64,000 bases of DNA from an uncultured Flavobacteriaceae bacterium (GTDB lineage Bacteria; Bacteroidota; Bacteroidia; Flavobacteriales; Flavobacteriaceae), in contig CANMSB010000003.1 of assembly GCA_947500445.1 (NCBI GenBank), positions 186,001-250,000 on the forward strand. The letters run 5' to 3'. Positions within the stretch are counted from its first letter, which is position 1, and every line of letters starts with the position of its first letter. The notes beneath the pieces were generated by a model, which was given only the letters and a program-made list of their open reading frames with translations, ran no database searches and had not been told where the DNA came from. Positions 10,332-64,000 of this stretch are shown one piece after another. The translations under genes were made by a program, and so were the position numbers.

Positions 10332-10334
10332 GAT

Positions 10335-25446: not shown

Positions 25447-26146
25447 TGGGGAAGGCTACAGGAGCTGTTGCCCGTGACGGCACTGTTCCCCCAAAAGGTC
25501 CTGAGCTGGCAATCGGTCTACCATCATTATCGGAAGTGGTGCCTTGAAGGAACCTTCCTTGATTGTTGGACGGCCATCTTAAAACGACACAGGGACAGTC
25601 TCGACCTTTCCAGCGTAGACCTTGACGGGAGCCATACCTCTTGTAAACGTGGCGGCGAGGCCGTGGAATACCAAGCACGGAAGAGGATGAAGACCACCAA
25701 TGCACTCTACCTGACCGATCGCCAGGGGCTGCCCTTGGCCATGTCGGAACCTGTGGCGGGCAACCGTAACGACCTTTACGAGATCGAAGTGCAGTTCGAA
25801 GTGGTCACCAAAACGCTTGACCAAGCGGACATCAGGACGGACGGCCTGTTCCTGAACGCCGATGCAGGGTTCGATCCAAAGGATTTCAGGGCCGCATGTT
25901 CGGCCAAGGAAATCAATGCCAACATCTGTTTCAACAAACGCAACAGGAGCGCCGACGATAGGAACGAATATTTCGACCAAGACCTTTATGATCAAAGGTA
26001 TGCCGTTGAAAGGACCAATGCATGGATGGACAGCTTCCGTTCTCTGCTCAACAGGTTCGATACCACCATCGCAAGCTGGAGGCTTCAACTATCTGTCGTT
26101 CATTGTCTTGGTGCTAAGAAAATTCAAAATGAAAAAGTTTAAATGA
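25447..26146 (+). pseudogene. IS5-type transposase, truncated and frameshifted
   Basis: The remaining frame starts inside the N-terminal domain (LLPVTALFPQKV, WQSVYHHYRKWCLEGTF). It contains a DDE set: D in SVDLDGSHTSCKRGGEA, D in LNADAGFDPKDF, and E in YAVERTNAWMDSF. About 40-50 N-terminal residues are missing, lost at the junction with the ThiF gene (~25446). At ~26077 the frame shifts: the expected end (GGFNYLSFIVLVLRKFKMKK) lies in the next frame and stops at 26146, while the original frame ends at 26142 with unrelated residues. It is therefore inactive. No inverted repeats or target duplication could be identified. Confidence 0.8.
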
Positions 26147-26286: not shown

Positions 26287-27900
26287 ATGGGAGCATTTCA
26301 GCAAACACCAATTAATGGTAGCATAGAAAAAATCATTGTAGTAGGCGGGGGAAGTTCTGGTGCTATATCGGCGGCTTACTTATCCAAAGCGTTGGGCAGC
26401 AACGTGGAGGTACAATTGATTGAGTCTCCAAACATCAGCAAGATCGGGGTAGGTGAAGCTACCATACCTACCATCAAAGAAGAAGTGTTTGACTTTTTGG
26501 GGATTCCAGAGGAAGAATGGATGCCTGTTTGTAAAGGAACTTACAAGACTGGTATACGGTTTGATAACTGGAAAAGAAGCCCTACGGAAGGTGGAGACCG
26601 CTACTGGCATGCATTTGGAGAACTACCTACGGTACGCCGGGTGCCGCTTTCTCATATTTGGTTACACAACTACCTTGATGGTCACCACGCACCGATGGAT
26701 TATACCTGCTACTCTACCCCATTGCTTTGTGACCACTACAAATCACCCAAATACCTTGACGGCACCAAAGCCATCCATTATGCTTACCATTTTGATGCTA
26801 CGATCCTGGCCGATTTTCTGATTGACTGGAGTGTCAAACACTTAGGGATTACCCAAACATTTGCCGAGCTGGTAGGTGCCGAGCGCAACGAAGAGGGCAA
26901 TGTTACCACGGTGATCGACACCGATGGCAACCGCTACGAGGCAGACTTATTCATTGATTGTTCTGGTTTCAAAGGCTTTTTGATCCAGGAAGCCCTCGAA
27001 GAACCCATAGTAGAGTTCAAGGACAGTCTGTTGACCGACAGCGCCGTGGCAGTCAATATCCCCAACGAATCAGGCAACCAAGACCTCAGGCCTTTTACCT
27101 CTGCCACTGCCATGGAGGCTGGCTGGGCTTGGAAAATCCCACTTATGGAAAGATCGGGCAACGGTTATGTATATTCAAGCCAGTTTAAAACCCCAGAAGA
27201 GGCACAAACCGAGATGGCCAGGCACTTGGGACCTGAAAAGGTAAAAGGAAGGGATTTCAGGCATTTTAAGTTTAAGTCTTTCCGACGTAGACGCTCATGG
27301 GTCAACAATGTGGTGAGCCTCGGGTTGGCGGGAGCATTTCTCGAACCACTCGAAAGTACCGGACTCTACTTTGTATACGCCTCACTTTACCAACTCACAT
27401 GCTACTTCCCCGGTAAAAAGATAAACCCTGCACTGCGGGACAAGTTTAACGAACGGGTCAATTTCATGGTAGATGACGTCAAAGATTTCATCATTCTCCA
27501 CTTCTGCACTTCCGGCAGGACGGATACCCCCTTCTGGTTAGCCAACAAACATGATTTGGTGATCCCCGACCCTCTTCGTGAGATACTAGACTTGCAAATG
27601 TCTGCCGTGCCTGTCAACAGGTCATACAGTTCCAACGAAGGACTGTACGACACCCTGGACTCTAGCTTCGACAGGTTTTGGACCAACTCCAATTATCAAA
27701 GCATCCTGGCAGGAGTAGGTTATCTGCCCAAAGAATCAATGCCACTCTTGAAGGTACGACGTGATATCCTGGAAGAAGGGCAAAAAGTAGTGGACGAAAT
27801 CAGAAAGAAAACCCAACATCACCTAAACAACCTTCCATCGCACCATGAATACCTTAGTCACCTGTACAGCCGTCAGGAGGCGCTCTCCCCTGTAGAGTGA
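26287..27900 (+). CDS. Flavin-dependent (tryptophan-type) halogenase
   Basis: A 537-residue enzyme of the tryptophan 7-halogenase family, which uses FADH2, O2 and chloride or bromide to make HOX that halogenates an activated ring. The FAD-binding GGGSSG is at residues 20-25. GVGEATIPT follows at ~55. The lysine that forms the reactive intermediate is probably K87 (TYKTGIRFDNW), by alignment with Lys79 of PrnA. The diagnostic WxWxIP is present as GWAWKIP, and EPLESTG carries the catalytic glutamate (E356). All key residues look intact. It is the first gene of the cluster; no flavin reductase is in the window. Whether the substrate is free or carrier-bound is unknown. Confidence 0.9.
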   Translation: MGAFQQTPINGSIEKIIVVGGGSSGAISAAYLSKALGSNVEVQLIESPNISKIGVGEATIPTIKEEVFDFLGIPEEEWMPVCKGTYKTGIRFDNWKRSPTEGGDRYWHAFGELPTVRRVPLSHIWLHNYLDGHHAPMDYTCYSTPLLCDHYKSPKYLDGTKAIHYAYHFDATILADFLIDWSVKHLGITQTFAELVGAERNEEGNVTTVIDTDGNRYEADLFIDCSGFKGFLIQEALEEPIVEFKDSLLTDSAVAVNIPNESGNQDLRPFTSATAMEAGWAWKIPLMERSGNGYVYSSQFKTPEEAQTEMARHLGPEKVKGRDFRHFKFKSFRRRRSWVNNVVSLGLAGAFLEPLESTGLYFVYASLYQLTCYFPGKKINPALRDKFNERVNFMVDDVKDFIILHFCTSGRTDTPFWLANKHDLVIPDPLREILDLQMSAVPVNRSYSSNEGLYDTLDSSFDRFWTNSNYQSILAGVGYLPKESMPLLKVRRDILEEGQKVVDEIRKKTQHHLNNLPSHHEYLSHLYSRQEALSPVE

Positions 27901-27964
27901 TGACAGGTATGGAGCAGACATGCTTGAACTAAGAATATTTATAAACTACCTAAATCTATCACTT

Positions 27965-28843
27965 ATGATATCGGACGAAAAGCAAAAGTACGATAGTAAG
28001 GGTTATTTGTTGTATGAAGGATTTTACACCAATAGCCTGGCTCAGTCTATCAAAGAAGAAGCCAGGCGCGTGATCCATGAAGAGGATGATGAGCGAAAGA
28101 TCCTGGAGAAATCAGGGGTGGCCCGCTCCTTTTTCTCCCCAGAGAATAACAGTGACCTATTCTACAGGCTCAATCGGGAAAAGAATATGCTTCGGCTGGT
28201 AAAAGAGCTGCTGGGCGGCGAGGTATACACTCACCAAACCAAGATAAACATCAAACACGCCTTGATCGGAGATGTGTGGGAGTGGCATCAGGATTTTATC
28301 TTCTGGGCCAAAGACGATGGCATGCCAGCCCCCAACGTGTTGACAGCCATGGTTTTTCTGGATGATGTCACAGAGTTTAACGGACCGCTCATGATCATAC
28401 CCGGCTCTCACCAGATGGGAATGTTACAAGAGACTCAAAAGGCAGCAAGCAACCATGACAAGGAATGGAATGAAAAGTATGTAAACACCAAATCCTATCT
28501 CTCGGCTTTGTCTGCTGACTTGAAGTATACCCTGGGGCAACAAGAAATCTTGGGCATGGCAGAAAAGCGTGGGATCGTGTCGGCCAAGGGAAAGGCCGGG
28601 TCAGTATTGTTCTTTCATGGCAACTTGTTTCATGCCTCACCCAACAATCTGTCTCCTTGGGACAGGTATGTATACCTGATCACCTACAACCGTGTAGACA
28701 ATCAGCCCGATTTCCCTAAAAACCCCCGGCCGGCCTTTTTGGCCAACCGTGATTTTACCCCATTAGAAGCAATGGAGATGGCATACCCAGTCGTGTCGCC
28801 GGAAGTCTGTCAACCAGACATACAGTACCCCATAAGCCGTTGA
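27965..28843 (+). CDS. Phytanoyl-CoA dioxygenase (PhyH) family oxygenase
   Basis: A 292-residue Fe(II)/2-oxoglutarate-dependent oxygenase; the start at 27965 (MISDEKQKYDSKGYLLYEG) matches the family start better than the open frame at 27920. The iron ligands are H108 and D110 in EWHQDFIFW and the distal H223 in LFHASPNN. Arg in the following SPWDRY probably binds 2-oxoglutarate. Family members in assembly lines hydroxylate amino acids or fatty acyl chains, and some halogenate, but the Asp here indicates hydroxylase chemistry. It lies 64 nt after the halogenase and 42 nt before the first PKS, so it is likely a tailoring enzyme. Confidence 0.87.
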   Translation: MISDEKQKYDSKGYLLYEGFYTNSLAQSIKEEARRVIHEEDDERKILEKSGVARSFFSPENNSDLFYRLNREKNMLRLVKELLGGEVYTHQTKINIKHALIGDVWEWHQDFIFWAKDDGMPAPNVLTAMVFLDDVTEFNGPLMIIPGSHQMGMLQETQKAASNHDKEWNEKYVNTKSYLSALSADLKYTLGQQEILGMAEKRGIVSAKGKAGSVLFFHGNLFHASPNNLSPWDRYVYLITYNRVDNQPDFPKNPRPAFLANRDFTPLEAMEMAYPVVSPEVCQPDIQYPISR

Positions 28844-28885
28844 GTGCGCTCTGTACGCGAGCCTATCGGCTAATAATAACCTAAT

Positions 28886-31800
28886 ATGCAAGAAGATACC
28901 CTCATATCGTTACTCAGGAAATATAGTGTACAGGCACCTGACCAAATACTTTACAGGTTTTTGAAAAATGGCGAGGATCCGAGCCATGAAATAACCTACC
29001 AAGGGTTTGACGTGCGCGTGCGGTCCATCGCAGCAAGGCTAAAGCACCGGTGTGAAAAGGGCGATAGGGTCTTGATCGTTTACAATTCAGGCGTGGAGTA
29101 TTTGTCAGCCTTCATGGCATGCCTCTATGCCGGGGTGGTGGCCGTGCCAGTTTACCCCCCTCGAAAAAACCGTAAAATGGCGCGTATACAGGCCATTATA
29201 GAAGATGCCGGGGCCGAGGTAGCTCTCACCGAAAGTGGCTTGTACCAAAGTATTGAAAAGCAATTGAAGGACGAGCCGGTGGCTGGGCTTTTGGAATGGA
29301 TACCCACCGATACTTGGGACAATAGCCAAGCAAACATGTGGTCAGATCCAGGCATTGCCCCGGACACCATTGCATTTTTGCAGTATACCTCCGGCTCTAC
29401 CGGTACGCCCAAAGGGGTGATGGTCAGCCAAAGCAACATCGTACACAATCTAGGGCTACTGCATACCGGCCTGTTGTCGCCCTCGCCACTGCGCATTGTG
29501 AGTTGGCTACCGCTCTATCATGACATGGGGCTCATCGGTAAGTCGCTTTATACCATTGCGCTCAAAGGCGAAATGACCTTTATGTCACCGGCCGACTTTC
29601 TGCAAAAGCCGATCCGTTGGCTAAAGGCTATTGACCGCTACAAGGCCAATTACTCCGGTGCGCCCAATTTTGCCTATGATTTGCTGGTCAGCCGCATTAC
29701 CGATGAGCAAGTGGCTACCCTTGACCTAAGTACGTGGAAAGCAGCGCTCAATGGCGCAGAACCCATTCGGCAGGAGACTATGCGCCGGTTAGTGGACAAG
29801 TTTGCTCCCGCAGGCTTTCAAGAAAGCACCGTCATATCTGGCTATGGATTGGCTGAGAACACATTGAGCGTTTGCTCCATCCACGAACACACGGGCATCA
29901 GGAGCATCAAGGTGCGTAGTGAAGACTTGTACAACGATGAAGTTGTACCAGTGGAGGAACATGAAGATGGAGTAGCGTTGATAAGTTGCGGCAAGACCAC
30001 CAATGGGCATAGCCTCTTGATAGCCCATAAAGATACACAAGAAGAACTGACAGAAGACCGGGTAGGGGAGATATGGGTAGGCGGGCCAAGCGTAACCCAA
30101 GGCTACTGGCAAAATCCCGAAAAAACAGCCGAAGTATATGGTGCTTACACTTCCGATACTCGAAAAGGCCCGTTTTTTAGGACAGGCGACTTGGGTTTTA
30201 TACATCAAGGCAACTTATATGTTACAGGGCGGCAAAAAGAATTGATTATTATAAGAGGGCAAAATTACTACCCCCAGGATATAGAGCGTGTGGTGCAAAC
30301 GGCACACCCTGCGTTGAAAATAAATAGTGGTGCCGCGTTTGGTGTGGCGAATACTGAGGGCGAACGACTGGTTATTGTGCAGGAGGTGGAGCGTGTATGG
30401 GTGAGAAAGTTAGCTTTTGAGGAAGTTATTGGGGTGGTCCGACGTGTGGTCAATTCGGAATTTGGTTTACAAGTAGCGGATCTTGTATTGATCACCCCCA
30501 ATTCATTACCAAAAACTTCGAGCGGTAAAATTCAGCGTCGGGGTTGTAAAGATGCTTATCTGGATGATGAATTGAAGATTATAGCACAGTTAGCAAAGGA
30601 CAATGATAAAGAGAAAGTACAAGTGCCAGATGCTGAGCAGCCAGTAGTGATGGAAGCAGAACACAAAGCGGAAATCTTTAAGTTTTTAGCGGAAAGTGTA
30701 AATAATTATTCAGGTGTAAGGATTGATGAAATTTCATCAGGTACTAGTTTGGAATCGATTGGGCTAGATTCTGTACATGCCATTGCTATCAGTGGTGATC
30801 TATCCGAATGGCTCGGGCGAAGTTTACCACCTACGTTGTTTTACGACTATCCGACTATGGGGCAGTTGGTAAGCCACCTTGTAGGCGAAACACCAAGCCA
30901 AAAGCCCTTAAAGCAAGCGTTGCAGGCTCCGATCGCGATTATTGGTTTAGCTTGTGAATTTCCAGGTGCTGAAGATGCTACTGCCTTTTGGGAGATGCTC
31001 ATCGCTGGCAAAAGCGGTATTGGAGCGCCAGACGAGCTGCGTACAGCGTTGACCCATGACAATCCTGAGGTAGCATTTAAGCAAGGAGGTTACCTGGAAG
31101 GAATCGATCAGTTTGATGCTGCTTTGTTTGGCATCATGCCCCGCGAAGCGATGCAAATGGATCCTCAACAACGCAAGTTGTTACATACTGTTTGGCGTGC
31201 ATTAGAGGATGCAGGGATTGCCCCCGAAAGCCTTCGCGGTACCGAAACAGGTGTTTTTGTAGGTGCCAGTACATTTGATTATGCCAATAACTTGTACCAG
31301 TCAGGACATACCAACGACCACTATTACGGTACAGGCAACTCAAATAGTATACTGGCTAACAGACTCTCGTATCTTTTTGACCTGCATGGGCCCAGCATGA
31401 GCATCGATACTGCCTGCTCCTCTTCGCTGGTAGCCATACACCAGGCATGCCAGAGCCTGCGGCATGGTGAAAGTACGCTGGCATTGGCAGGTGGAGTCAA
31501 CCTGATCCTCAACGAAGCAGTGACGGAAGCCTTTGGGCGGGCAGGTATGCTTGCCAAAGATGGTCATTGTAAAACATTTGATGCCAGTGCCGATGGTTAC
31601 ACCCGGTCCGAAGGGGCGGGTGTAGTCATACTTAAGCCATTGCAGGAGGCAATAGATGATAACGACCAGATATACGCGGTGATCAAAGGGACGGCCATCA
31701 ACCAGGACGGCAAGACCAATGGCCTGACGGCCCCCAATGGGCCAGCACAGCAAGCTGTGGTTCGAAAAGCGCTGAAAGCCGCAGGACTGGCACCAAAAGA

Positions 31801-34800
31801 AGTGGGGTACGTAGAGTGCCATGGTACGGGTACCCCACTAGGTGACCCGATAGAGGCCAACGTGCTTGGAGGAGTGTTGGCTGAGGGCAGAGAAGCTCAT
31901 GAACCTTGTTATCTAGGCACTGTCAAGGCCAATATTGGGCATTTGGAAGCCGCCGCAGGCATTGCGGGACTCATCAAAGCTACCTTAGCCATACAAGTGG
32001 GGAAAGTGCCCGGAAACCCTCAGTTAAAAACATTGAACCCCGAGATAAAACTTGATGGGGAATTGTTTAAAATACCCCATACGCCTGTGTCATGGAACGG
32101 TCAAAGTAGGCATGCAGGCGTTAGCAGCTTCGGATTTGGCGGTACCAACGCTCATGTAGTGATCGGGGAAGCGCCAGCCCAAACACCTCATGAACCAGAT
32201 CAGCACCCTGCTGAACTGTTTTGCCTGGCAGCACACACCGAGTCAGCATTGGCGGTTTTGGCAAGGCAGATGATGGCGCGTTATGAAACCTCAGCGGTCG
32301 ATCAGCAGCAATTGAAAAACCTGGCAGGCAGCCTGTTGAATAACCGGGGCGTATTACCACATAGACTAGCTTTCAGTGCTAAAAACGCTGAAGAGGCGGT
32401 AGCATGTTTGGATGGCTGGCTCAGCAAAGCACCTGCTACGCCTGTGTACGATCGTCAAAACACAGGGCAGAAAAAAGGCAAAATAGCCTTGATGTTTAGT
32501 GGTCAGGGTGCACAGTATGCAGGCATGGGAGAGGAATTGTACCGCTATGCCCCTGAATTCAAAAAAGTGATCGATCAGTGTGCATCACTGCTGGAAAAAG
32601 AAATTGACTACCCCCTTAAACAGCTTTTGTTTGGAGGTGATGACATGGATGGTGCCTTGCATAAAACTGCCTATACGCAACCAGCCCTGTTTGCAATCGA
32701 ATATGCAACCGGCCGGCAGTGGATGGCATGGGGTGTGCAGCCCGATTGCCTTATTGGGCATAGCGTTGGCGAATTTGCGGCGGCTTGCCTGGCGGAAGTG
32801 TTCACATTAAATGAAGCCATCAAACTGGTAAGTGCGCGAGGCAGGTTGGGGCAGCAGGTGCCACCCAAAGGGATAATGATGGCCATACAAGCCGATGATG
32901 TTCGGGTGCAGCATTGGATCGGGCAAACCACAGGCCAGGTAGGCATTGCGGCTTACAATGGGCCTTCGCAAACAGTGATCACTGGTGACAAGGAAGCTGT
33001 CAGGGCTTTGGCAGCCGTGGCGGAGGCGCAAGGCGTGAAATGTACCCGGTTGGAAATATCAAATGCCTTTCATTCGCCAGTAATAGCCCCGATGGTGACT
33101 GGGTTTGAGCAGGTGGCCCAATCGATACAATATCAAAAACCTAAAATCCCCGTACTCTCTAACCTTACTGGTGAATTAGCCGGAGAAAACATTATGACCG
33201 CGCAATATTGGGTGAGCCACCTGATAGAACCAGTATCATTTTACCAAGGAATGCAAACGGCATTCCGCCTAGGAGTCAATACATTTATAGAAGCAGGGCC
33301 AAAACCTACACTTACAACGGTAGCCAAAGCATTTGGTCCTCAGGATACAACCTGGCTAGTGAGTCAACAACAAACGCAGCCGGGATGGCAAACAATACTA
33401 CATGCCCTGGCGGGATTGTACGTCTTGGGATACCCGGTAGATTGGGAAAAGATATATCCAAAGAGTTCCTATAATTTTGTAAAAACGCCGGGCTTACCAT
33501 TCGATACCAGATCGTATTGGTTGGGAGATACGCGCCAACGTAAGACAGGTGATCTGTTTTCAACTGTAGAAGGGCACCCTTTGATTGGCCATGCTTTGCA
33601 AACGGCTTCTACCTCAGAAACGGTCTATCATCACCAATTGCGCCATGAGTACCCTAAATTCCTTTATGAACATGAAGTGGCAGGGCAACCCGTATATTCG
33701 GCAGCAGCCTTTATTGAATGTTTTTTGGCTGTAGGGAGCGAGCGGTACCCCGCACTCAGGCATTTGCAGATACTGAAGCCATTCATACCGGAAAAAGGAA
33801 AGCAAATACAAGTCATCGTACGTGATTTAGGGAATGTACAAGAGGCATTGTTTTACAGTAAAGATGGCGAACAATGGCATTTACACACCCGTGGCCAATT
33901 CGGTGCTAATACTAATACTGCCATAAACGTCACCCAATCAGAACTGGTATTCCTCAAGATACAAAAGCGCATATCGCGCGAAGTGGCGCTCGAAACGCTG
34001 TGGCAAAAACTAGCGGACAAAGGAGTTAACTACGGAGAAGAGTTGAAAAACTGGCGGCAAATTTGGGAAGGCGAGGGCGAAGCGCTAGGAGTAATGGCCG
34101 TGTCAAACACCATGCGCCAACCTGTATACAGGCTTCATCCAGCCATTGTTGATGCGGGGCTTCAACTCTTGCCGCTTGTGATTCCTGAAGTTGACAATGG
34201 GAAAACGTATGTATTGCAAGCAACAGGCGAGGTAGTGCCCACTGGCGCGACTTTATCAACGGTGTGTTGGTGCCATGCCATATATGTGGAGGAAACTACT
34301 GGCGGATATTTGGTGAATTTAGCATTCTACACTGATGAAGGGGTGCTAATTGCGACCGTCAAAGAGGCACTATTGTGTGAAATGACTGTGAATACTTCCC
34401 TTTCCAATCAACATGACAAGCATTATCATGTACACTGGCAACTGAAAGCGGGGAATTATGCCCCTGTATTGGATCTAAATCCATTAACAGGCCAAAAGAC
34501 AAACACAGACGAGCATCGCCTATTGAAGGACTACCAGCAACAGCAAGATGCTATGGAACATCGGGTATTGCTTTGGGTAAGGAATGCGATGTCTGCGATG
34601 GGTTTGGCACTTGAAGTAGGGCAAAAGGTCAGTTTTGAAGGGTTGTTAACATCCCTAAACGTATATAATGGGCAGCGTAGACTGTTCTACAGGTGTTTAC
34701 AAATATTGGCAGAAGCCTCACTGATCCAGGAAGACGGTACCCAATTCACTGTAGTCAACGAGATCCGGTTGAGTAGTGCAGAAAAAAAGCGCCTTGACAA

Positions 34801-37399: not shown

Positions 37400-37411
37400 A
37401 AACTAATAACT

Positions 37412-40714: not shown

Positions 40715-40723
40715 TAATCACTT

Positions 40724-52830: not shown

Positions 52831-52833
52831 AAA

Positions 52834-55800
52834 ATGCTAACTATGGAAAAGACAATCAGCTTCTTGTTAGAGCTAAAATCGCTAGGGATCAGGGTAGCAG
52901 TGGAAAGCGGTAAGTTAATGGTAGACGCCCCCAAAGGCGTAATGACTGCAGAAATAGCCAAAAGTATCCAGCAAAACAAGCAGGCGATCATCGATAGTCT
53001 GCATCAAATATCCGATGGGCAGGGGCAAATGCCTGTATTTGAGAAAAACGAACAAGCAGGCTTATTGCCTTTATCCGATAATCAGGAACAGCTGTGGGTA
53101 GTAGGGCGGCTGGAAGGGCAAAACCCTCTCTACAACATTCCAACAGCCATTCGTCTTAAAGGGCATTTTGACCTACAGGCTGCACAAAAAGCATTAGAAG
53201 CCGTAGCACAACGCCATGAAGCATTGAGGGTCACCTTTCATCAAAACGACGATGGACAGGGGGTGCAGCAAGTACATGAAAAGCCGATCACCAATATCGC
53301 CTTTGAAGACCTGAGCCAACTGAAAGGTGCTGCGCAACAACAAGCCCTGGATCAGGAAATTGAGACATACACAACTGAGCCATTTGTACTCGAAAAGCTG
53401 CCATTGATGCGGGCTGCATGTATTAGGTTGGCGGAGGAAGAGCACGTGTTTTTGATGGTGATGCACCACATTATAGCGGACTATGGCACCATAGCCATCT
53501 TGCAACACGAGTTCAGCACGTTATACGATGGGGAGGTGACAGGCAAGCCTGCCCAATTGCCTCCTGTTCCATATCAGTATTCAGACTATGCCTTGTGGCA
53601 GCGCAAGTACATACAAACAGCAGCATTTAAACACAAATTACAGTTTTGGGAAAACCACCTGGCCGATGCCCCGGCCGTATTACAATTGCCTGCCGATAAG
53701 CAAAGGTCCATCAAGCGAAGCTATCAGGGAGGGAGTGTCAGCATTACCTGGGGGGCTGATTTGACGACCGCTATCAAAGCGCAAAGCACTGCCACACAAA
53801 CTACCTTATACATGGGCTTACAAGCGGCGCTTTCTGCCTTTTTGCACCGGTATTCGGGGCAAGCCCAAGTGGTAGTCGGCAGCTCGGCAGCCAATCGCAT
53901 GCCAGCTGAAACAGAAGGCATCATGGGGTTTTTCGTCAATATGCTCCCACTCAAAACAGACTTTGAAGGAGACCCGTCATTCAAACAGCATTTACAAAAT
54001 GTAAAAGCCATAAGCCTTGAGGCATTGCAAAACCAAGATGTACCCTTCCAAAAAATGCTGGAAACCCTCGAGGTAAAAAGAAATACGGGATATAGCCCGG
54101 TGTTTCAGGTAGTGCTCAACCTTCAAAACTACCAGGCAGACAATACCCTGATAATGAGCGGGTTGTCGATCACTCCGTATCCTTTATCAGGAAAGGTTGC
54201 CAAGTACGATATCACCTTTATTTTCAAAGAAGAGACCGAGGGGCTGAGTTTGTTAGTAGAGTACAGCACGAGCCTGTTTGAAGAAGCTACTATCAGACAA
54301 ATGGTAGACAGGTTTGAATACTTTGCCACAGAACTCACCGGCCAACCGGATACACCCATCACGCTGCTTCCCCTGGAATCCCCCGAAGAGACCGCAAAAC
54401 AATTGCTCGTCAATAATGTAAGCAATGACTATCCGGCGGATGCTTCTATTGCGGAGCTATTTGAAGCGCAAGCAGCAAAGTATCCAGACCATATTGCGAT
54501 TATTGAAAAGAGAAAATGGACGTATACAGAAGTCCATCAAGAGGCCAATAAGTTGGCTTTTTACCTGATAGAGAAAATAGGTGTCAAAAAAGGCGATCGG
54601 GTGGCTTTGCTACTAGACAGATCACCTGAAATGATTATCGGCATGTTGGCTGTGTTGAAGGCTGGGGCGCTATATGTTCCACTCGACCCGGCCCACCCAG
54701 AAAAACGTATCAGGCATATTATGGAGGCAGTTGCCCCCATAGTGATTCTGACAGTATCAGACTACAAGTTTGATTTTGATTACTTCGACGGCACACTATA
54801 TAAGTTTGACTTACAACAAGCCACACTAGAGACCCCCGCCAATAACCCAGAGGTAAGTGTCACAGGAGACGATCCATGCTATATTATGTACACCTCTGGC
54901 TCTACGGGTAACCCAAAAGGCGTGGTAGCGAAGCATCGCGGCGTAACAAGGCTGGTGAATAATACCAACTATGTAGAGATCAACCCCGATGATCGGTTGT
55001 TGGCACTTTCTAGTTATGCCTTCGATGGTTCCACCTTTGATATTTATGGTGCCTTGCTCAATGGAGCGGCACTGGTGATGCCCTCCAAAGAAGAGGTGTT
55101 GGAACTGCCCAAGCTTATGCAACGGGCTGTTGAAGCAGGGGTGACGTTGTTTTTTACGACCACAGCCTTGTTCAATACCTTGGTAGATACCCAGTTGGAA
55201 AGTCTTGGCGGGTTGAGGAAAATACTTTTTGGCGGGGAGCGTGCCAGCTTGTCGCAAATAGACAAATTTTTTAAAGCCTACGGACCGGGTATATTGACGC
55301 ATGTGTATGGTCCTACCGAAAACACCACCTTCTCTACTTGGTACCCAGTGGATTCGGTGAATATTGAGCATGGTAATTTGCCCATAGGCAAGCCCATCGC
55401 AAATTCCACCATGTACGTGGTGGACTCCCAAGGGCAATTGCAACCCAAGGGCTTAGTCGGCGAACTCTGGGTAGGAGGCGATGGTTTGGCTGCGGGTTAT
55501 TGGGCCAATGACGAAGGAACCAAGGAGCGATTCCTTCCGGATCCATTCGATCCCGGTCGAAAAGTGTACTGCACTGGCGACCTCGTATCGATGTTGCAAG
55601 ACGGCAATATTGAATTTATAGGCAGGGTAGACCAACAAGTCAAAATTAGGGGCTTCCGCATTGAACCAGATGAGATTGCCCACCAGATATCCCTGCACCC
55701 AGTCGTAAGCCAGGCCGTCGTCGTGGTCAGTGAAGTTGGAAACAGTCGGGAGCTATGGGGATATTATAGTGGAGAGAAAGCGGTGAGTGAACAGGCAATG

Positions 55801-58800
55801 AGGAAGTATTTGCAAGGGCAACTGCCTGAATATATGATTCCCGTAAGCCTAATGTCACTTGAAGCAATGCCCTTGAACCCAAATGGCAAGGTAGACAAAA
55901 AAGCCCTTCCGAAACCAGAGAAGGGGGGCGAACACAAAACGGCACTAAGTAAGCCGCCTGCTAGTGCAACAGAACAACTAGTTGCAGGAATATGGGAAGA
56001 TGAGCTATCTGTCCAAAATGTCATGAGAGGAGACAACTTCTTTTCATTGGGTGGGGATTCGATCAAAGCCATTCGGGTAATCGCGGCATTAAACCGGGCG
56101 ACCGACAGGGAGCTGGAAGTGAAAGATTTATTCTCACAACAGACATTGTCAGCATTTGCAGGGTTCATGGATGCACCGCCAGTCGATACAGGCCTGCCGG
56201 GCCGAGCGGATGCCGAGCAGTGGCTGCAAAGCTGGAAAAGCAACCTCAACAAAGGGGAAGGGAGTGATTACGACTTGCTCAGTAGTGCTGAAGACTACTA
56301 TCCGATAAGTGATATACAGTCAGGGATGTTGTTTTATACCCTGTATAACCCCGGCGGAGGTACCTATCATGTTCAGCAGTTTCACCATTGGGAGATGGCC
56401 AATTTTGACATCAGTCGATTCAAATCAGCCTATCGCATGCTGTTGGCCCGTCATGCCATATTCCGTACCAGTTTTCACCTGCAGGCTTTTGAAGAACCAT
56501 TGCAGGTAGTGCATAGTATGGAAGATTTGGAAGTCAACCTGACGTTTGAGTCACTGGAAACGCTGACAGAGCAAAGCCAAAAAGAGGCATTTACCAGTTA
56601 TATGAAAGAAGACCATCGGAAAGGTTTTGAAATAGACAAGCCTGGGCTGTTGCGCACAGGAGTTTTTGCCTTAGGAAATAACCAATACTCAATATTATTG
56701 ACGTTTCACCACGCGATCATGGATGGGTGGAGCGATGCCACCCTGATGGCGGAGCTGTGGAAAAACTATTTAGCACTTGAATCCACGCCAGACTATAAGC
56801 CCTTACCGCTGCCAGTAAGCTATCGTGATTACGTGCTGGATCAGTGGCGTTATCAGCAAGCACCTTTCGTACAGCAGTGGTGGGCTACCCATTTTGAAGG
56901 TTTTGAACGGATGCCCTTACCTTTTTACAAAAGGCCAAACCCTGAGTTGACGCAGCAAAAGCGAGGATATGGCTTTCCGATGCCACAGCAGACCATAGAC
57001 ACGGTTACGCAACTAGGCAAAGAACTCGGTTTTACCTTCAAGCAAGCCTCCCTGGCTGCTACCCTTGCCACACTTTACCACTACACCGGGCACCATGACC
57101 TAGTGATCGGTATGATGTCGCACGGCCGGCCTGAACTGCCTGAGGCAGAACGTATGATGGGGTGCTTTCTCAATTCGGTACCCGTGAGGGTCGCAGCCAG
57201 TTTTGACAGTGTGGGCCAATGGGTAAAATCCATTGGCGAACATATTGCCACACTGAAGAGCTACGATAAACTACCCCTGTTGCAAATCCAAAAGCTGGTC
57301 AAAGAAAGTAAGCACCTTGGCAACCCAATCTTTGATATCCTATTCAGCTATCTCGATTTTCATGTATTGCAGGAGAATGAGCATAAAGAGGGGCAACGTG
57401 ACAAAGCTGGTTCAATTGTTGACGGTACGGCCATCACCAATACCCACCTGGATATTGCGGTGGCACGGCAAGGAGAACAAGCCTTTTTGTCTTTTAATTA
57501 TGACTCAAACCTATTCAAGGAAGAAGAAATCAAGCAATTAGGGGATTGTTTCCTGCGGTTTATGGAAACACTTGCCCACAATCCCGATGAGGGGCTTACA
57601 TCCAGGAATTTATTGGGCGATGATGAAATCACGCGACTATTATCTTTACATGACCGTACGGAGAAGGCTTGGGACCAGGAGGCTACCCTGCTCAGCCACT
57701 TTCATACAGCTGTGATGGCGCATGATAGCCGGATAGCATTAGCCTTTGGTGATGAGGAGATCACCTATCGTGCACTAGACCAACAGTCTAACAGACTGGC
57801 ACATTTGTTACGAGAAAGGGGAGTAGGAGCTGAAAAGCCAGTGGGGATATTATTTGAACGTGGGGCTGATATGGTCGTGGCCATACTGGCAGTATTGAAA
57901 AGCGGCGGTGCATACCTACCGATAGACCCTTCTTTACCATCCGCAAGGATTGACTTCATCCTCAACGATGCACAGCCAACATTGGTCATTACCGATTGCA
58001 AAAGCACCCTCAATGATTTGTCCATAAGCAGTCAGCAATGGTTAATCCTTAAGGAAACTGAATGGGGGCACTATCCTGATAGTGCATTGGAGGTGACGGT
58101 AGCCCCAGACAATTTGGCCTATATCATTTATACCTCAGGCTCTACAGGCAAGCCAAAAGGCGTGGAAGTAGAACACCGCCAGGTGTCACGTCTATTATTT
58201 TGTGAAGGCTTCGACTTCGACTTTGGCCCCGAGGATGTATGGACACTGTTTCACTCGATCAGTTTCGACTTTTCTGTATGGGAACTTTGGGGGCCGCTAT
58301 TGCGGGGAGGCAAGTTGGTGGTTTTGCCTAAATCAACTACCCAAAATCCGACAGCACTGATGGATGCCCTGGTGCAATACCGGGTCACAGTGCTGAACCA
58401 GGTGCCGACTATATTTGGTCAACTATGGGGCGCTATAACAGCCAGTGATAGTCATCCGGCATTAGCCCTTCGCTATGTCATATTTGGCGGGGAAGCACTA
58501 CAGCCCTCTATGCTTGCGGGTTTTCACGCTCAATACCCCGACACCAGGTTGGTCAACATGTACGGCATTACCGAAACCACAGTCCACGTAACTTATAAAG
58601 AGATTGGTACAAGGGAGATATCGGAGGGTATTTCCAATATTGGGCGCGTACTGCCCAATCTGCGCATTTGCTTGTTGGGAGACAACAGGCAGTTGGTGGC
58701 ACAAGGAGCAGTGGGTGAAATAGTTATTGGCGGTGCTGGTTTGGCGCGTGGCTATCTCAACCGTCAAATGCTCACTGCCGAGCGGTTTGTACAAGACCCC

Positions 58801-61800
58801 TACCGGCCGGGCGAAAGGCTTTACCTAAGTGGCGACCTTGCTATGATTAACGAACTTGGCGAGTTGGTGTACATGGGGCGCAAAGACCAACAAGTAAAGG
58901 TGCGGGGATACCGTATCGAATTGGGCGAGATAACAGATGCCATGCTACAGTTGGATGGCGTGACAAGTGCGGCTACTTTGGTGCAGACAGACGATCAGGG
59001 AGATAAGACACTAATTGCCTATGTGACCGGGGAGGCTGCACTCAATGCCAATACGTTGAAAGCAGGAATGGAGGCCACGCTTCCACCGTATATGCTCCCA
59101 GCCCGATTCGTACGAATAGAAGCACTGCCCTATACCAGCAACGGCAAGCTAGATACCAAAGCCCTATCCCAGATAGAAGGGGAGCTACGTGGGACGAAAG
59201 ACTATGTAGGCCCGCGCAATGAAATAGAGAAACGCCTGGTGAAGGTTTGGGAACGGCAATTAGGGGTACAGGACATCGGCATTCGCGACAATTACTTTGT
59301 GCTGGGGGGCGACTCCATCAAGGTCATTAGGCTTGCCGGTGCCATCAAAGAGGCATTTGGCCAGGAATTGGAAATCAAGGCGATATTCCAGCACCCCACC
59401 ATCGAGCAACAAGCAGCATACCTGGGCGAGGCACAAACCAATGATAACCATCATGAAGCCTGGCTACAAAAACTAACCGATAACAAAGTGGCGATATTGG
59501 ACAATAGCCAATATGCCAAACGATTGCCACAAGGATGGGAAGATGTGTACCCTATGGCCGATATTGTACAAGGCATGTTTTTTCATATGCGACTCTACCC
59601 AGAGGCAGCGATGTACCATGACCAATTTTTCTACAGCTTCAAGGACGAAAACTTTAAACTCACACAGCTAATCAAGGCTTTTCAGATTCTCGTGTCACGT
59701 CATGAAATACTCCGTTCCAGCTTTTACCTTGATGGTTTTGCGCAGCCCATGCAAGTAGTGCATACGCCAACAATGGTGGACATAAGCATACCTATTCAAG
59801 ACTTGCAAGGCCAAAACGAAGAGCAACAGCAAGCAACGATGCAGGCATTTGCCCAGGCGGACCGCCAAAAACCGTTCGACGAGCGCGAAGCAGGCCTATG
59901 GAGACTTTGTGTATTCCAGACAGGCCAAGACTCCTATGTGTTGTTGAAAGCCATGCACCATGCCATAATAGATGGCTGGAGCAATGCGTCGCTGGTCACC
60001 GAACTGGCGATGGTACAAGCTCGTTTGGCCAAAGGAGATACAGACGGTTTGCCGCCCTTGAAGGCAAGCTACAAAGACTATGTGGCAGCCCAGTTACGCA
60101 TACAACAAGACGAAAGCGTACGCCAGTGGTGGACCGTTGAGTTGGAAAACTACGAGCGTACCCCTCTGCCATTGCAGAAGCAGGTGCGAAAGCTCCCTAC
60201 ACAGTTTCAAAAACACACGATACAGTGGGAGCTACCGGCAGATTTGACCCGCCAGATAGACGAGTGCGCACAACAAAAGGATATCAGTGTCAAAAACCTG
60301 CTGTTTGCAGCATTTGTACTGTTTATGCAGCGAAGTGTCAACCGACGCGAAGTGGCTGTTGGGATATTGAGTCATGGCCGTCCGCCAATAGCCGATGGCG
60401 ACAAAATCCTTGGCTGCTTCCTCAATTCGGTGACCTTCAGGAACGATGGGAAAGCCGATACAGTAGCCGATTTCTTGCAGGAAATCAATGCGAAATCAAA
60501 TGAGCTCAAGGGTTACGACCAACTGAGTCTCGCACAAATAGCAGGTATTGCCGGGGAAGAGACTCATGGGCAAAACCCATTGTTTGATACCCTGTTTACT
60601 TACCTGGATTTTCATGTGACTGGGCAGATAAAGGGGCTATTCGAAAGTGGTGGCCAAGACCCAGAGAGCTATACGCTTAACAATACGCTGTTTGACTTTG
60701 TGGCCTACAAAATGGACAGCAAACACCTACTACAATTTGTTGTACTCGAAGGGCTCTACGACAGTCATGAACTAGAGATGCTGCAACAAGCCTACCTAAT
60801 GATACTGGAACAGCTTGTGGCTGAAGAGAACCAGCAACTTGAAAATATTGCATGGATTACTGAGGGAGGGGTACCATTATCGGTATGGGAAGGACCAGGC
60901 CGACCGCGTGATTCACAGAACAATTGGCAGGAGGCTTTGAAACAAGCCGCCACAAAGTACCCGGAAAAACAAGCCCTGGTCAATGGTCAGGAAGTGGTCG
61001 GCTTCGGGGAGTTGGACAGTACATCAGCGCAGTGGGCTGCTTATCTAGTACACAAGCTGGGTGTTGAGGAAGGTGACGTGGTGGCAGTGGCCATGCCTAG
61101 AAGTATCGCGGCTGTTGTTAGTATTTTCGCAGTGATGAAGGCCGGTGCAGCTTTCTTGCCCATCGATGCAGACACACCAAAAGAACGCATACAGTTAATG
61201 ATCTCAGATGCTGGTGCCAGGTATATCATCTCCAACGATTTGTCGGAAATTACAGACGCAGACATCATCCGAACAGCAACGTTGTCAAGTCAATCAGGCC
61301 TTGAAACGACCGCATTAGCATACCAACCCACAAGGTTAGCTTACTTAATATATACCTCGGGCTCTACTGGCAAGCCCAAAGGCGTTAGGATTACGCATCG
61401 AAGCTTGCACAACTATTGGATATCTGCCAACGAAACTTACGTAAATCAGCAAAGTAGTGATGTGCCCGGTGCCCTGTTTACCTCCCTGGCGTTTGACCTT
61501 ACCATAACAGCACTATTGGGTACGATATTGAGAGGAGATACCTTACATATCTATACAGGTGAGGCCAGCGAAGAGTTGCCACACATTATGGCATCAGTAA
61601 GCCCTGTACGAATGGTAAAACTCACGCCTGCACACGTAACCATATTGGCTGATACAGGTATGAAGGGTAGCCTGGTAAAAACAGTGATTGTCGGCGGCGA
61701 TGTATTTACCGTAGCACAATACAAAGCTTTACAAATGATCGCCCCCCAGGCGGAGGTTTATAATGAGTACGGCCCCACAGAGGCCACCGTAGGCTGTATA

Positions 61801-64000
61801 GTGAAAAATGTGCGAAGTGAACAGGATCTCGACAGTATCGGAGTCCCAATGCCCAACACCAACGCCTATGTGGTAGACCAGTGGGGGCAGTTGTTGCCCA
61901 TGGGGATGTCTGGCGAACTATGTATCGGAGGAATAGTCCTTGCCGAAGGTTATCATGGCCGCGATGCATTGACCGAGGAACGTTTTGTGCGGTTAGGTGC
62001 TTTGCCGGAAAAAGTATACCGTACCGGAGATTTGACCAAGGCTACTGCGCAAGGGGAAGTCGCCTTTTTGGGCAGGGCTGACAATCAGGTCAAAATCAAT
62101 GGATACCGCATCGAAGCGGGTGAAGTGGAGGCGGCCATTCGCAACCTTGCTAGTGTGGAGGATGCAGTAGTGCTGCTACAATCACACGGTAAGCAGGCCT
62201 CTCTGGCTGCATGGGTGCAGTCCAGACAGCCCATCACTACCATGACCATCAGGGACGGGTTGGCCAAGCAGTTGCCCTCCTATATGATTCCTGCTGCAAT
62301 CACCGTACTTGAGGCAATGCCACTAACCGCCAACGGCAAGGTAGATCGAAAGGCACTAGCCGCAACCTCAATGGATGCAAGGCCAGAGGAAAGTTATGTA
62401 GCACCCGTTACGCCTACAGAATCGTTGTTGGCAGGGCTATGGTCGGACGTGCTGGGAAAAGAAAGTGTGGGTGCTGAAGACAATTTCTTCCACATTGGCG
62501 GCAACTCGCTGTCGGCTACCCGGATAGCGGAGCGCTACTACCAGCGTAGCGGTATGCGTTTGCCCATTAGGGACCTATTTACTTACCCCGTGTTGCGGGA
62601 ACTAGCCGCCAAATTGGACGAAATGGATACCGAAGGAGCATTTATCCCGATAGCACAGGTCCCGGCAGCGACGTTGTACCCGGTGTCGCATGCACAAAAG
62701 AGGCTTTGGCTATTGGACAAGCTTGAGGAGCAGGCCAAGCAGGCTTACCTCATTCCATGGGGCGTATACCTGACTGGCGAGTTAGATACCGACGCACTCA
62801 AAGACGCTTGGTATTGCTTAGGGCAAAAGCACGAAAGCCTGCGTACCGTGTTTGAAGAAAAAGAAGGAGCGCCATGGCAACGGGTGTTGCCTGAGCAAGA
62901 TTTTCCAGCGCTGGAGTACTTCAATGCACACCACGAAGGCCTCGAAGCGGGTGCTATAGAGCAGCAAGCAACTGCCTATGTTAATACCCCTTTTAATTTG
63001 GAAGGGGCCCCATTATGCCGTGCGGCCTTATTCGGGTTGGGCGATAAACGATGGCTATTGTGCATAGCATTACACCATATAATTGCCGATGGCTGGTCGG
63101 TACAAGTGCTGCGGCAAGACTTGGTACAGGCTTACGCGGCATGCATTGAAGGGAAGCAATGGGACGGGGTAGATAGCCTTCCTATACAATACAAAGACTA
63201 TACGGCCTGGCAGCAAGCACAACTGTCGGGTGAAGCGCTGGCAGGTCATCGCCAATTTTGGTACACGATGCATGCCGGTAACCAAACGGTGATGCAACTA
63301 CCTGTTGACAAGCCCCGCCCAGCAATAAAAACCTACCAGGGACGCATACATAAACATGTACTGGACGCCTCCGCCACAAAATTGCTCAGGTCATTGGCAA
63401 GCGAAAAGGAGTCTAGCATGTTTATGGTAGTGTTGTCTGCCGTATATGTGCTACTCAGCAAGTACACCGGGCAAGACGATATGGTAGTGGGTACGCCTAT
63501 CGCCGGCAGACAACACCCATGGCTGGAAGATCAGATAGGCTTCTATGCCAATACACTGGCGCTGCGCTACCAAATAAATCACAACGACAGCTTTGAGCAA
63601 GTCTTGGACAAGGTCAGAAACTTAATGGTAGAGGCCTATACCCATCAGGTATACCCTTTTGATGCCCTGGTGGAGGAACTAAGTCTGGAAAGGGATTTGA
63701 GCCGCTCGCCAATGTTTGATGTGCTCGTACTTTACAACGACTTTGAAAAAAGACACAACTCAGGCTTGTCCGGTGTTGATACCACACCATGGAACCTGGA
63801 AACAGGGCAGGCAAAATACGACCTTACCTTTGCCTTTGCAGAAGAAGGCGAGGGACTAGTGATCGCATTGGAGTACAACGATGCGTTGTTTAACAAAACC
63901 ACCATGATGCGAATGGTCGAAGTATTGGCCAGTTTACTTCAGAAAATACCGCTTGACACCGCCCAGTCCATTGGTAAACTTAACCTCATAGGCGAGCAGG
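52834..64000 (+). CDS. Multi-module NRPS, open at the right edge: docking-(C-A-PCP)x3-C...
   Basis: A frame of at least 3722 codons that runs off the window with no stop; it starts at ATG 52834 or, equally likely, at 52843 (MEKTISFLLELKSLGIRV, a TubC-type docking domain). C1 has HHIIADYG at 211-218, where Tyr sits at the motif Gly. A1 gives D-G-F-F-L-G-V-T-F-K (Ile-like), PCP1 S1076 (GGDS). C2 has HHAIMDGW from 1292; A2 gives D-F-W-N-I-G-M-V-H-K, the standard threonine code; PCP2 S2161 (GGDS). C3 has HHAIIDGW from 2375; A3 gives D-L-T-K-I-G-E-V-G-K, one step from the asparagine code; PCP3 S3225 (GGNS). C4 (HHIIADGW from 3414) reaches the edge, so at least one more module follows. Confidence 0.9.
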   Translation, partial: MLTMEKTISFLLELKSLGIRVAVESGKLMVDAPKGVMTAEIAKSIQQNKQAIIDSLHQISDGQGQMPVFEKNEQAGLLPLSDNQEQLWVVGRLEGQNPLYNIPTAIRLKGHFDLQAAQKALEAVAQRHEALRVTFHQNDDGQGVQQVHEKPITNIAFEDLSQLKGAAQQQALDQEIETYTTEPFVLEKLPLMRAACIRLAEEEHVFLMVMHHIIADYGTIAILQHEFSTLYDGEVTGKPAQLPPVPYQYSDYALWQRKYIQTAAFKHKLQFWENHLADAPAVLQLPADKQRSIKRSYQGGSVSITWGADLTTAIKAQSTATQTTLYMGLQAALSAFLHRYSGQAQVVVGSSAANRMPAETEGIMGFFVNMLPLKTDFEGDPSFKQHLQNVKAISLEALQNQDVPFQKMLETLEVKRNTGYSPVFQVVLNLQNYQADNTLIMSGLSITPYPLSGKVAKYDITFIFKEETEGLSLLVEYSTSLFEEATIRQMVDRFEYFATELTGQPDTPITLLPLESPEETAKQLLVNNVSNDYPADASIAELFEAQAAKYPDHIAIIEKRKWTYTEVHQEANKLAFYLIEKIGVKKGDRVALLLDRSPEMIIGMLAVLKAGALYVPLDPAHPEKRIRHIMEAVAPIVILTVSDYKFDFDYFDGTLYKFDLQQATLETPANNPEVSVTGDDPCYIMYTSGSTGNPKGVVAKHRGVTRLVNNTNYVEINPDDRLLALSSYAFDGSTFDIYGALLNGAALVMPSKEEVLELPKLMQRAVEAGVTLFFTTTALFNTLVDTQLESLGGLRKILFGGERASLSQIDKFFKAYGPGILTHVYGPTENTTFSTWYPVDSVNIEHGNLPIGKPIANSTMYVVDSQGQLQPKGLVGELWVGGDGLAAGYWANDEGTKERFLPDPFDPGRKVYCTGDLVSMLQDGNIEFIGRVDQQVKIRGFRIEPDEIAHQISLHPVVSQAVVVVSEVGNSRELWGYYSGEKAVSEQAMRKYLQGQLPEYMIPVSLMSLEAMPLNPNGKVDKKALPKPEKGGEHKTALSKPPASATEQLVAGIWEDELSVQNVMRGDNFFSLGGDSIKAIRVIAALNRATDRELEVKDLFSQQTLSAFAGFMDAPPVDTGLPGRADAEQWLQSWKSNLNKGEGSDYDLLSSAEDYYPISDIQSGMLFYTLYNPGGGTYHVQQFHHWEMANFDISRFKSAYRMLLARHAIFRTSFHLQAFEEPLQVVHSMEDLEVNLTFESLETLTEQSQKEAFTSYMKEDHRKGFEIDKPGLLRTGVFALGNNQYSILLTFHHAIMDGWSDATLMAELWKNYLALESTPDYKPLPLPVSYRDYVLDQWRYQQAPFVQQWWATHFEGFERMPLPFYKRPNPELTQQKRGYGFPMPQQTIDTVTQLGKELGFTFKQASLAATLATLYHYTGHHDLVIGMMSHGRPELPEAERMMGCFLNSVPVRVAASFDSVGQWVKSIGEHIATLKSYDKLPLLQIQKLVKESKHLGNPIFDILFSYLDFHVLQENEHKEGQRDKAGSIVDGTAITNTHLDIAVARQGEQAFLSFNYDSNLFKEEEIKQLGDCFLRFMETLAHNPDEGLTSRNLLGDDEITRLLSLHDRTEKAWDQEATLLSHFHTAVMAHDSRIALAFGDEEITYRALDQQSNRLAHLLRERGVGAEKPVGILFERGADMVVAILAVLKSGGAYLPIDPSLPSARIDFILNDAQPTLVITDCKSTLNDLSISSQQWLILKETEWGHYPDSALEVTVAPDNLAYIIYTSGSTGKPKGVEVEHRQVSRLLFCEGFDFDFGPEDVWTLFHSISFDFSVWELWGPLLRGGKLVVLPKSTTQNPTALMDALVQYRVTVLNQVPTIFGQLWGAITASDSHPALALRYVIFGGEALQPSMLAGFHAQYPDTRLVNMYGITETTVHVTYKEIGTREISEGISNIGRVLPNLRICLLGDNRQLVAQGAVGEIVIGGAGLARGYLNRQMLTAERFVQDPYRPGERLYLSGDLAMINELGELVYMGRKDQQVKVRGYRIELGEITDAMLQLDGVTSAATLVQTDDQGDKTLIAYVTGEAALNANTLKAGMEATLPPYMLPARFVRIEALPYTSNGKLDTKALSQIEGELRGTKDYVGPRNEIEKRLVKVWERQLGVQDIGIRDNYFVLGGDSIKVIRLAGAIKEAFGQELEIKAIFQHPTIEQQAAYLGEAQTNDNHHEAWLQKLTDNKVAILDNSQYAKRLPQGWEDVYPMADIVQGMFFHMRLYPEAAMYHDQFFYSFKDENFKLTQLIKAFQILVSRHEILRSSFYLDGFAQPMQVVHTPTMVDISIPIQDLQGQNEEQQQATMQAFAQADRQKPFDEREAGLWRLCVFQTGQDSYVLLKAMHHAIIDGWSNASLVTELAMVQARLAKGDTDGLPPLKASYKDYVAAQLRIQQDESVRQWWTVELENYERTPLPLQKQVRKLPTQFQKHTIQWELPADLTRQIDECAQQKDISVKNLLFAAFVLFMQRSVNRREVAVGILSHGRPPIADGDKILGCFLNSVTFRNDGKADTVADFLQEINAKSNELKGYDQLSLAQIAGIAGEETHGQNPLFDTLFTYLDFHVTGQIKGLFESGGQDPESYTLNNTLFDFVAYKMDSKHLLQFVVLEGLYDSHELEMLQQAYLMILEQLVAEENQQLENIAWITEGGVPLSVWEGPGRPRDSQNNWQEALKQAATKYPEKQALVNGQEVVGFGELDSTSAQWAAYLVHKLGVEEGDVVAVAMPRSIAAVVSIFAVMKAGAAFLPIDADTPKERIQLMISDAGARYIISNDLSEITDADIIRTATLSSQSGLETTALAYQPTRLAYLIYTSGSTGKPKGVRITHRSLHNYWISANETYVNQQSSDVPGALFTSLAFDLTITALLGTILRGDTLHIYTGEASEELPHIMASVSPVRMVKLTPAHVTILADTGMKGSLVKTVIVGGDVFTVAQYKALQMIAPQAEVYNEYGPTEATVGCIVKNVRSEQDLDSIGVPMPNTNAYVVDQWGQLLPMGMSGELCIGGIVLAEGYHGRDALTEERFVRLGALPEKVYRTGDLTKATAQGEVAFLGRADNQVKINGYRIEAGEVEAAIRNLASVEDAVVLLQSHGKQASLAAWVQSRQPITTMTIRDGLAKQLPSYMIPAAITVLEAMPLTANGKVDRKALAATSMDARPEESYVAPVTPTESLLAGLWSDVLGKESVGAEDNFFHIGGNSLSATRIAERYYQRSGMRLPIRDLFTYPVLRELAAKLDEMDTEGAFIPIAQVPAATLYPVSHAQKRLWLLDKLEEQAKQAYLIPWGVYLTGELDTDALKDAWYCLGQKHESLRTVFEEKEGAPWQRVLPEQDFPALEYFNAHHEGLEAGAIEQQATAYVNTPFNLEGAPLCRAALFGLGDKRWLLCIALHHIIADGWSVQVLRQDLVQAYAACIEGKQWDGVDSLPIQYKDYTAWQQAQLSGEALAGHRQFWYTMHAGNQTVMQLPVDKPRPAIKTYQGRIHKHVLDASATKLLRSLASEKESSMFMVVLSAVYVLLSKYTGQDDMVVGTPIAGRQHPWLEDQIGFYANTLALRYQINHNDSFEQVLDKVRNLMVEAYTHQVYPFDALVEELSLERDLSRSPMFDVLVLYNDFEKRHNSGLSGVDTTPWNLETGQAKYDLTFAFAEEGEGLVIALEYNDALFNKTTMMRMVEVLASLLQKIPLDTAQSIGKLNLIGEQ

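Follow-up and report, generated by a model that had tools for sequence, protein, structure and literature searches.

Does the long run of synthase genes that opens with a halogenase on this contig encode a single working FAAL-PKS-NRPS assembly line, and what would such a line make? The window, meaning the whole stretch of 64,000 nt that was analyzed, corresponds to contig C3:186001-250000 of a 5.18-Mb draft genome in 177 contigs, and window-frame coordinates are obtained by subtracting 186000 from those of C3. Our analysis indicates that the cluster is real and probably a functional orphan NRPS-PKS, and that it extends well past the window.

Extent and architecture of the gene run

The original prediction placed seven co-directional genes in the window, and seven open reading frames (ORFs) were indeed present there on one strand. 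Their spacings were 19, 42, 12, 9, -4, and 3 nt, so that the proposed 4-nt overlap was recovered and the proposed gaps of 3 to 64 nt narrowed to 3 to 42 nt. Reading the ORFs on past the window revealed a 78.7-kb run of twelve open genes on a single strand (C3:212287-291009), of which the window's seven genes form the first part and which ends 41 kb past the window end. Pfam analysis bore out both the FAAL-PKS-NRPS hybrid character and the module order; the predicted length, by comparison, was understated about twofold, the whole line running from FAAL/ACP loading through four PKS modules and 15 A domains to a thioester-reductase domain at its end. The twelve genes are the following:

26287..27900, +: hal, flavin-dependent halogenase of PrnA/RebH type, 537 aa (Pfam PF04820, E 1.7e-143; PrnA, E 6.1e-151)
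27920..28843, +: phyH, Fe/2-oxoglutarate oxygenase, leucine-hydroxylase-like, 307 aa (Pfam PF05721, E 4e-35; 5nch, E 3e-51)
28886..37399, +: g3, FAAL-ACP-KS-AT(NAFH)-DH(P->S)-cMT-KR-ACP, 2837 aa (Pfam, motifs)
37412..40714, +: g4, C-A-T, pocket DILQLGMIWK (Gly) (Pfam, aligned pocket code)
40724..46204, +: g5, KS-AT(HAFH)-KR-DH-ACP (Pfam, motifs)
46201..52830, +: g6, TubC_N-C-A(DGFFLGVTFK, Ile-like)-T-Cx-A(DPAPFGAICK)-T (Pfam, pocket codes)
52834..64000 (cut by the window), +: g7, TubC_N-C-A(Ile-like)-T-Cx-A(Thr)-T-Cx-A(Asn)-T-C-A(DLFNNALTYK, Ala-like)-T-C (Pfam, pocket codes)
C3:253189-263412, +: g8, half-C-A-T-E-C-A-T-C-A-T (Pfam)
C3:263452-275208, +: g9, KS-KR-ACP-C-A-T-Cx-A-T-C (Pfam)
C3:275210-281011 (ORF start possibly 96 nt earlier), +: g10, half-C-A-T-C-A-T (Pfam)
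C3:280971-282251, +: g11, free AT (Pfam)
C3:282589-291009, +: g12, KS-KR-ACP-C-A-T-reductase (Pfam)

The last window gene, g7, continues for 3179 nt past the window, to C3:253179. Only short gaps or overlaps separate the genes from hal through g11, including 9 nt between g7 and g8 and 1 nt between g9 and g10 on the same strand, and a 337-nt gap precedes g12. Translation found no stop codon in any of the 12 cluster proteins, leaving the assembly-line genes free of inactivating stops as the original prediction presupposed, nor in the neighboring megasynthase h1. A C-domain search of the genome itself returned 30 places, 17 of them on contig C3; despite these 30 places, no MbtH-like protein was found in the whole genome, and no transporter was found among the genes scanned with Pfam.

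The neighboring h1 gene (FAAL-ACP-KS-AT-DH-KR-ACP-KS-AT-ACP-aminotransferase-C) lies at C3:299376-312864 (window frame 113376-126864), where it is cut by the contig end. It has a paralogue on contig C48, 54 to 55% identical over two stretches, and relatives in genomes G776 and G778 at about 44%; the short NRPS contigs C68, C71, C75, C53, and C21 may hold missing parts of the h1 cluster. Between the two clusters, the minus strand of C3:295219-298227 carries genes for a CmlA-type diiron beta-hydroxylase and a class-III aminotransferase, near which stands a histidine kinase/LuxR-type response regulator pair.

Active sites, substrate codes, and tailoring enzymes

Loading is encoded at the start of g3, where the FAAL (PF00501, 17-408; PF23024, 452-568) adjoins an ACP (PP-binding, 604-665). 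The KS Cys/His/His residues are kept in all four PKS modules (g3, g5, g9, and g12; motif check), as is the catalytic Tyr in all four KRs. The ATs of g3 and g5 retain GHSxG and read NAFH and HAFH, respectively, which we take to be malonyl type. The first module had been described as C-methylating and reducing: its cMT was confirmed, while its DH carries HxxxGxxxxS in place of HxxxGxxxxP, so that dehydration by this module, judged from the motif, is uncertain. In g5 the DH is positioned after the KR, the reverse of the usual DH-then-KR order, and keeps both HxxxGxxxxP and HPALLD.

Pocket codes were placed by alignment to a GrsA fragment, and this re-derivation agreed with the original calls of Gly, Ile-like, X, Ile-like, Thr, and Asn. 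Along the line, codes 1 to 7 read DILQLGMIWK (Gly), DGFFLGVTFK, DPAPFGAICK, DGFFLGVTFK, DFWNIGMVHK (Thr), DLTKIGEVGK (Asn), and DLFNNALTYK; codes 8 to 15 read DVWHVSLIDK (Ser), DSHSITFVVK, DLFNNALTYK, DFWNIGMVHK (Thr), DLYDFSLVWK, DFWNIGMVHK (Thr), DLFNNALTYK, and DAQDLGVVNK. We infer the substrates from these codes, and the residue names used here, including Ala-like, Cys-like, Glx-like, and Ile-like, are our presumptive readings. A residue could be given to 13 of the 15 codes, the exceptions being the second modules of g6 (DPAPFGAICK) and g8 (DSHSITFVVK), and no code among the 15 A domains was assignable to Trp. The Ile-like code DGFFLGVTFK differs at one place from DGFFLGVVF, the published Ile/Val code of ThdA_A2 (PMC7253712). 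A search of the text of papers with five of the pocket codes, one of them also in shorter form, turned up unrelated papers only.

The core motifs of the 15 A domains are largely kept (A3 in 15, A5 in 14, A7 in 11, A8 in 15, and A10 in 14); the four A7 exceptions have SGD for TGD, and the A10 exception reads NSK with the Lys retained. HHxxxD is present in 15 of the 16 complete C/E domains of g4 to g12 and the full HHxxxDG in 12. In the first C of g6, g7, and g9, another residue replaces the G (DA, DY, and DL, respectively), while the C that comes last in g8 reads SHMISDG, with SH for HH. All 20 carrier domains of g3 to g12 possess the phosphopantetheine serine (LDS, GGDS, GGHS, GGNS, or GAHS). 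GGDSI is the carrier motif that marks epimerizing positions; it occurs in all five carrier domains that precede a Cx (four) or the E domain (one), and in none of the other 13 carrier domains of g4 to g12 (GGHS/GGNS in 12, GAHS in one). This distribution suggests that the carriers before Cx and E domains are epimerizing positions. A thioester reductase (PF07993) ends g12, so a terminal release domain is present.

Halogenation had been raised as a possibility; Pfam placed hal in the Trp_halogenase family, and the assignment can be refined to the PrnA/RebH type, which points to a Trp-like unit. Members of this type are recognized by the flavin motif GxGxxG, by WxWxIP, and by catalytic Lys79 and Glu346, and the Trp pocket of PrnA comprises Y443, Y444, E450, F454, and W455. 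The hal protein is a nearly full-length homologue of PrnA (221 of 518 aligned positions identical, 43%) with GGGSSG and WAWKIP, and its own K87 and E356 are the catalytic Lys and Glu. It keeps PrnA K79, H101, F103, E346, Y444, F454, and W455, the catalytic and indole-contacting residues among them, and differs at two pocket positions, Y443 to Leu and E450 to Ser. Since hal belongs to this family and retains the catalytic Lys and Glu, a Trp-like unit is the most probable entry point of the halogen, although free Trp is uncertain as its substrate because of the two pocket changes.

Hydroxylation had also been suggested as a possibility, and Pfam identified phyH as a PhyH protein. In the PDB it matches, near full length, an oxygenase (7e01, the best match, E 7.6e-61) and 5nch, named "Leucine hydroxylase", which we take to be GriE; the HxD pair (H123, D125) and distal H238 are present. 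Because of the leucine-hydroxylase match and the HxD with distal His, hydroxylation is a likelier activity for phyH than halogenation.

AT-less modules, half C domains, and origin of the cluster

The two later PKS modules are of a different kind from the first two. Pfam detected no AT in g9 or g12 at E <= 0.001, and the KS-KR stretches of both hold a weak AT trace in which the GHSxG site reads GDGVG or GTGVG. The traces score low against an AT profile, at 13.0 and 7.1 bits (best of 400 shuffles, 2.6), and AT remnants are thus weakly indicated by the sequence; their persistence suggests that the ATs were lost in place. Between these two modules lies g11, a free AT with GHSLG. AT-inactive modules with a free AT alongside are the mark of trans-AT polyketide synthases, and here the combination applies to g9 and g12 only, whereas the first two modules have intact cis-ATs. 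Among six KS domains compared, those of g9 and g12 are mutually closest (52%). The most economical explanation is the loss of the AT from one module and the duplication of that module, with g11 now serving it.

A second irregularity is found at two gene junctions. Proteins g7 and g9 each end in a complete C domain, and the next proteins, g8 and g10, each begin with half a C domain, about 250 residues leading into the A domain, from which the N-lobe with HHxxxDG is missing. The half C of g10 matches the C-lobes of g9 (E 3e-13) and g7 (E 1e-8) in full, and that of g8 matches the g10 half C over its length (E 3e-15; 26% identical). A C-lobe profile built here recognizes just the final 80 residues of the half C domains, with scores of only 21 and 13 bits, so both are divergent. 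A profile made from the pair matched three NRPS C-lobe/linker stretches in the PDB (E 0.0003 to 0.015), the remaining 11 matches having E >= 0.22 and including chance ones (P450, MreB).

Applied to 395 genomes of the phylum at 1e-5, the half-C profile matched 20 loci in 11 genomes, our own included. In four of the 20 loci, a count that leaves L066 unjudged since it is cut at its 5' end, the half C lies at a protein N-terminus before an A domain: the two described here and one each in G552 and G560, where no NRPS gene lies upstream and the N-termini look like starter modules. That half C domains are unique to this cluster was considered and rejected, given these two further N-terminal examples (L056, L057). 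In the genus relatives G776 and G778, which carry another cluster type, a protein ending in C is followed by one starting directly with A and having no half C; a C|A cut between genes thus occurs elsewhere in the genus. Thermoactinoamide synthetase ThdA is a starter which, like g8 and g10, has an N-terminal truncated C (C*) immediately before its A domain (PMC7253712). The present cluster differs from it in having two such domains, both located at internal junctions where the preceding protein terminates in a complete C. Our literature search, mostly of open-access papers, did not find this pairing of complete C and half C at internal joints, which is weak evidence of novelty.

Composition and flanks bear on where the cluster came from. 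GC content is 0.471 to 0.524 in the twelve genes and lower around them: 0.436 across 44 kb on the left side, 0.343 across 8.4 kb on the right side, and 0.417 within h1. Transposase remnants lie on both sides:

25468..26142, +: transposase remnant (DDE_Tnp_1/DDE_Tnp_4), 144 nt before hal (Pfam, E 1.8e-7 / 4.7e-8)
within C3:291010-292000, -: weak transposase remnant right of g12 (19.3 bits, under the Pfam cut-off of 23)

The left remnant is the left edge of the island. With GC higher than that of its flanks and transposase remnants on both sides, the cluster looks acquired. Left of the island, the minus strand at 24055-25705 carries a DUF6527 gene and a DUF6791/ThiF (E1-like) gene, with E1-E2 matches in PADLOC that are weak. 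The transposase remnant overlaps the beginning of the DUF6791/ThiF ORF, and this gene may have been shortened by the insertion. Farther left, 7047-11819 encodes a PSCyt1-PSCyt2-PSD1 protein and, after it, a DUF1501 protein; this combination is known mainly from Planctomycetes.

Relatives were sought with single-gene probes, rather than by whole-cluster comparison, in samples of 10 genomes of the genus, 397 of the family (237 genera), and 395 of the phylum, and, in line with the original statement that no characterized cluster of this order was recognized, none of these probes found a close one. With hal, 40 of the 397 family genomes matched at E <= 1e-3, and besides our own genome only G066 (35%) and G122 (32%) fell below 1e-40; in the 395 phylum genomes the one match at 1e-60 was our own. 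A GTDB pattern scan with hal returned four Proteobacteria MAG loci at 33%, and 91 plasmid records matched hal, all at <60% identity (best listed, about 43%). The g5 probe matched four of the 10 genus genomes at 1e-30, our own included, the best foreign match by E-value being 35% identical; these matches are generic PKS. The KS-(AT remnant)-KR-ACP module of g12 matched 49 of the 395 phylum genomes at 1e-60; among the matches listed, besides itself only g9 matched over the whole 1304 aa, and the longest other match covered residues 7-713.

FAAL-started hybrid PKS-NRPS lipopeptide clusters are known from the iturin/mycosubtilin and cyanobacterial types. As in those clusters, loading is by FAAL-ACP, PKS modules extend the fatty acid, and C-A-T modules follow. 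What sets the present line apart is its 19 extension modules, a further ketide that comes after Gly, a predicted pair of statine-like ketides, release by a reductase, and a mixture of cis-AT and AT-less modules. The architecture is of a known kind, while its length, cis-AT/AT-less pairing, joints, and probable product look new.

Proposed product and competing readings

On balance, we favor a hybrid line that was acquired horizontally, is probably functional, and produces a single long lipopeptide-polyketide of linear form, and we infer a single collinear chain and its product from the order of genes and domains. The FAAL would load a fatty acid onto the ACP for one C-methylating ketide extension, followed by Gly and by a second ketide that, reduced and dehydrated, would yield a vinylogous Gly unit. 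Ile-like, X, Ile-like, Thr, Asn, Ala, Ser, X, and Ala residues would come next, and a reduced ketide on the last Ala would give a statine-like 4-amino-3-hydroxypentanoate. Thr, Cys-like, Thr, and Ala residues, a second statine-like ketide, and a Glx-like residue would complete the chain, whose reductive release would produce an aldehyde or alcohol. A halogenated Trp or Trp-like unit would most likely enter at one of the two A domains without an assigned code. The most likely role of PhyH is to hydroxylate an aliphatic amino acid with a branched side chain, and the small changes in the Ile pockets would agree with this; g11 would charge both AT-less modules. At the g7/g8 and g9/g10 joints, the upstream terminal C would condense onto the leading T domain of the downstream protein, the half C of g8 or g10 retaining the C-lobe/A-domain platform. 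Passage of the chain across these two joints is the main doubt about a single chain; the low scores of the AT remnants, the four off-consensus C/E domains, the lack of an MbtH gene in the genome and of a transporter among the Pfam-scanned genes, the pocket changes of hal, and the gap before g12 also count against the favored reading.

The joints are where the alternatives diverge most. Two or three separate lines in a row, with g8 and g10 as starters and with finished blocks released or joined by the C domains that end g7 and g9, would agree with the half-C-A N-termini of G552 and G560, on genes that no NRPS gene precedes, and with the truncated C of the published starter ThdA (PMC7253712). 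The shared plan of g8-g9 and g10-g12, each running half-C-A(Ser/Thr) ... A(Ala-like)-T and then KS-(AT remnant)-KR-ACP-C-A, favors the same arrangement, as does the mutual closeness of their KS domains. We nevertheless regard it as rather unlikely, since the genes share one strand with junction gaps of 9 and 1 nt, and no dedicated release domain was seen before the one that closes g12, so that g7 and g9 could off-load only via C. A related and still more tentative idea, which we would doubt sooner than defend, is that the line was built by plugging starter-type synthetases together, the half C serving as an inter-protein coupling platform in which a complete C docks onto an orphan C-lobe. If true, NRPS proteins would here hand over the chain at a new kind of joint, one that occurs twice in a halogenated lipopeptide line of about 15 residues whose product would bear two statine-like units and an aldehyde or alcohol end.

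Two further readings concern activity. The pocket changes E450S and Y443L and the lack of an A-domain code assignable to Trp would suit hal and PhyH belonging to a separate pathway, or acting late on the finished peptide, with no free building block halogenated; this seems unlikely to us, because both genes lie on the same strand directly before g3 with gaps of 19 and 42 nt, and hal keeps the fold family, K79/E346, and the indole-contacting residues. It is more improbable still that the cluster is a decaying or silent import that arrived with the island and lost production. Degenerate ATs, half C domains, and four C/E domains off HHxxxDG could be signs of decay, as could the transposase remnants (the right one weaker) and the lack of close relatives in the probed samples; against this stand 12 uninterrupted ORFs over 78.7 kb, conserved KS, KR, carrier, and A-domain motifs, and an adjacent free AT that matches the lost ATs.

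According to a survey of 600 Bacteroidetes genomes, Flavobacteriia have few clusters per strain, 3.19 on average, with Kordia and Chryseobacteria as exceptions, and the vast majority of the RiPP, NRPS, PKS, and hybrid clusters of Bacteroidetes are unique relative to any other phylum (PMC9248904). Orphan status would thus be expected there. The complete-C/half-C joints and the loss of cis-ATs beside a free AT would be natural examples of possible assembly-line splicing and bear on NRPS engineering. If the genome belongs to Flavobacteriia, as originally supposed, this 19-module orphan line would merit an attempt at isolation, for which its halogen would offer a signature that can be tested.
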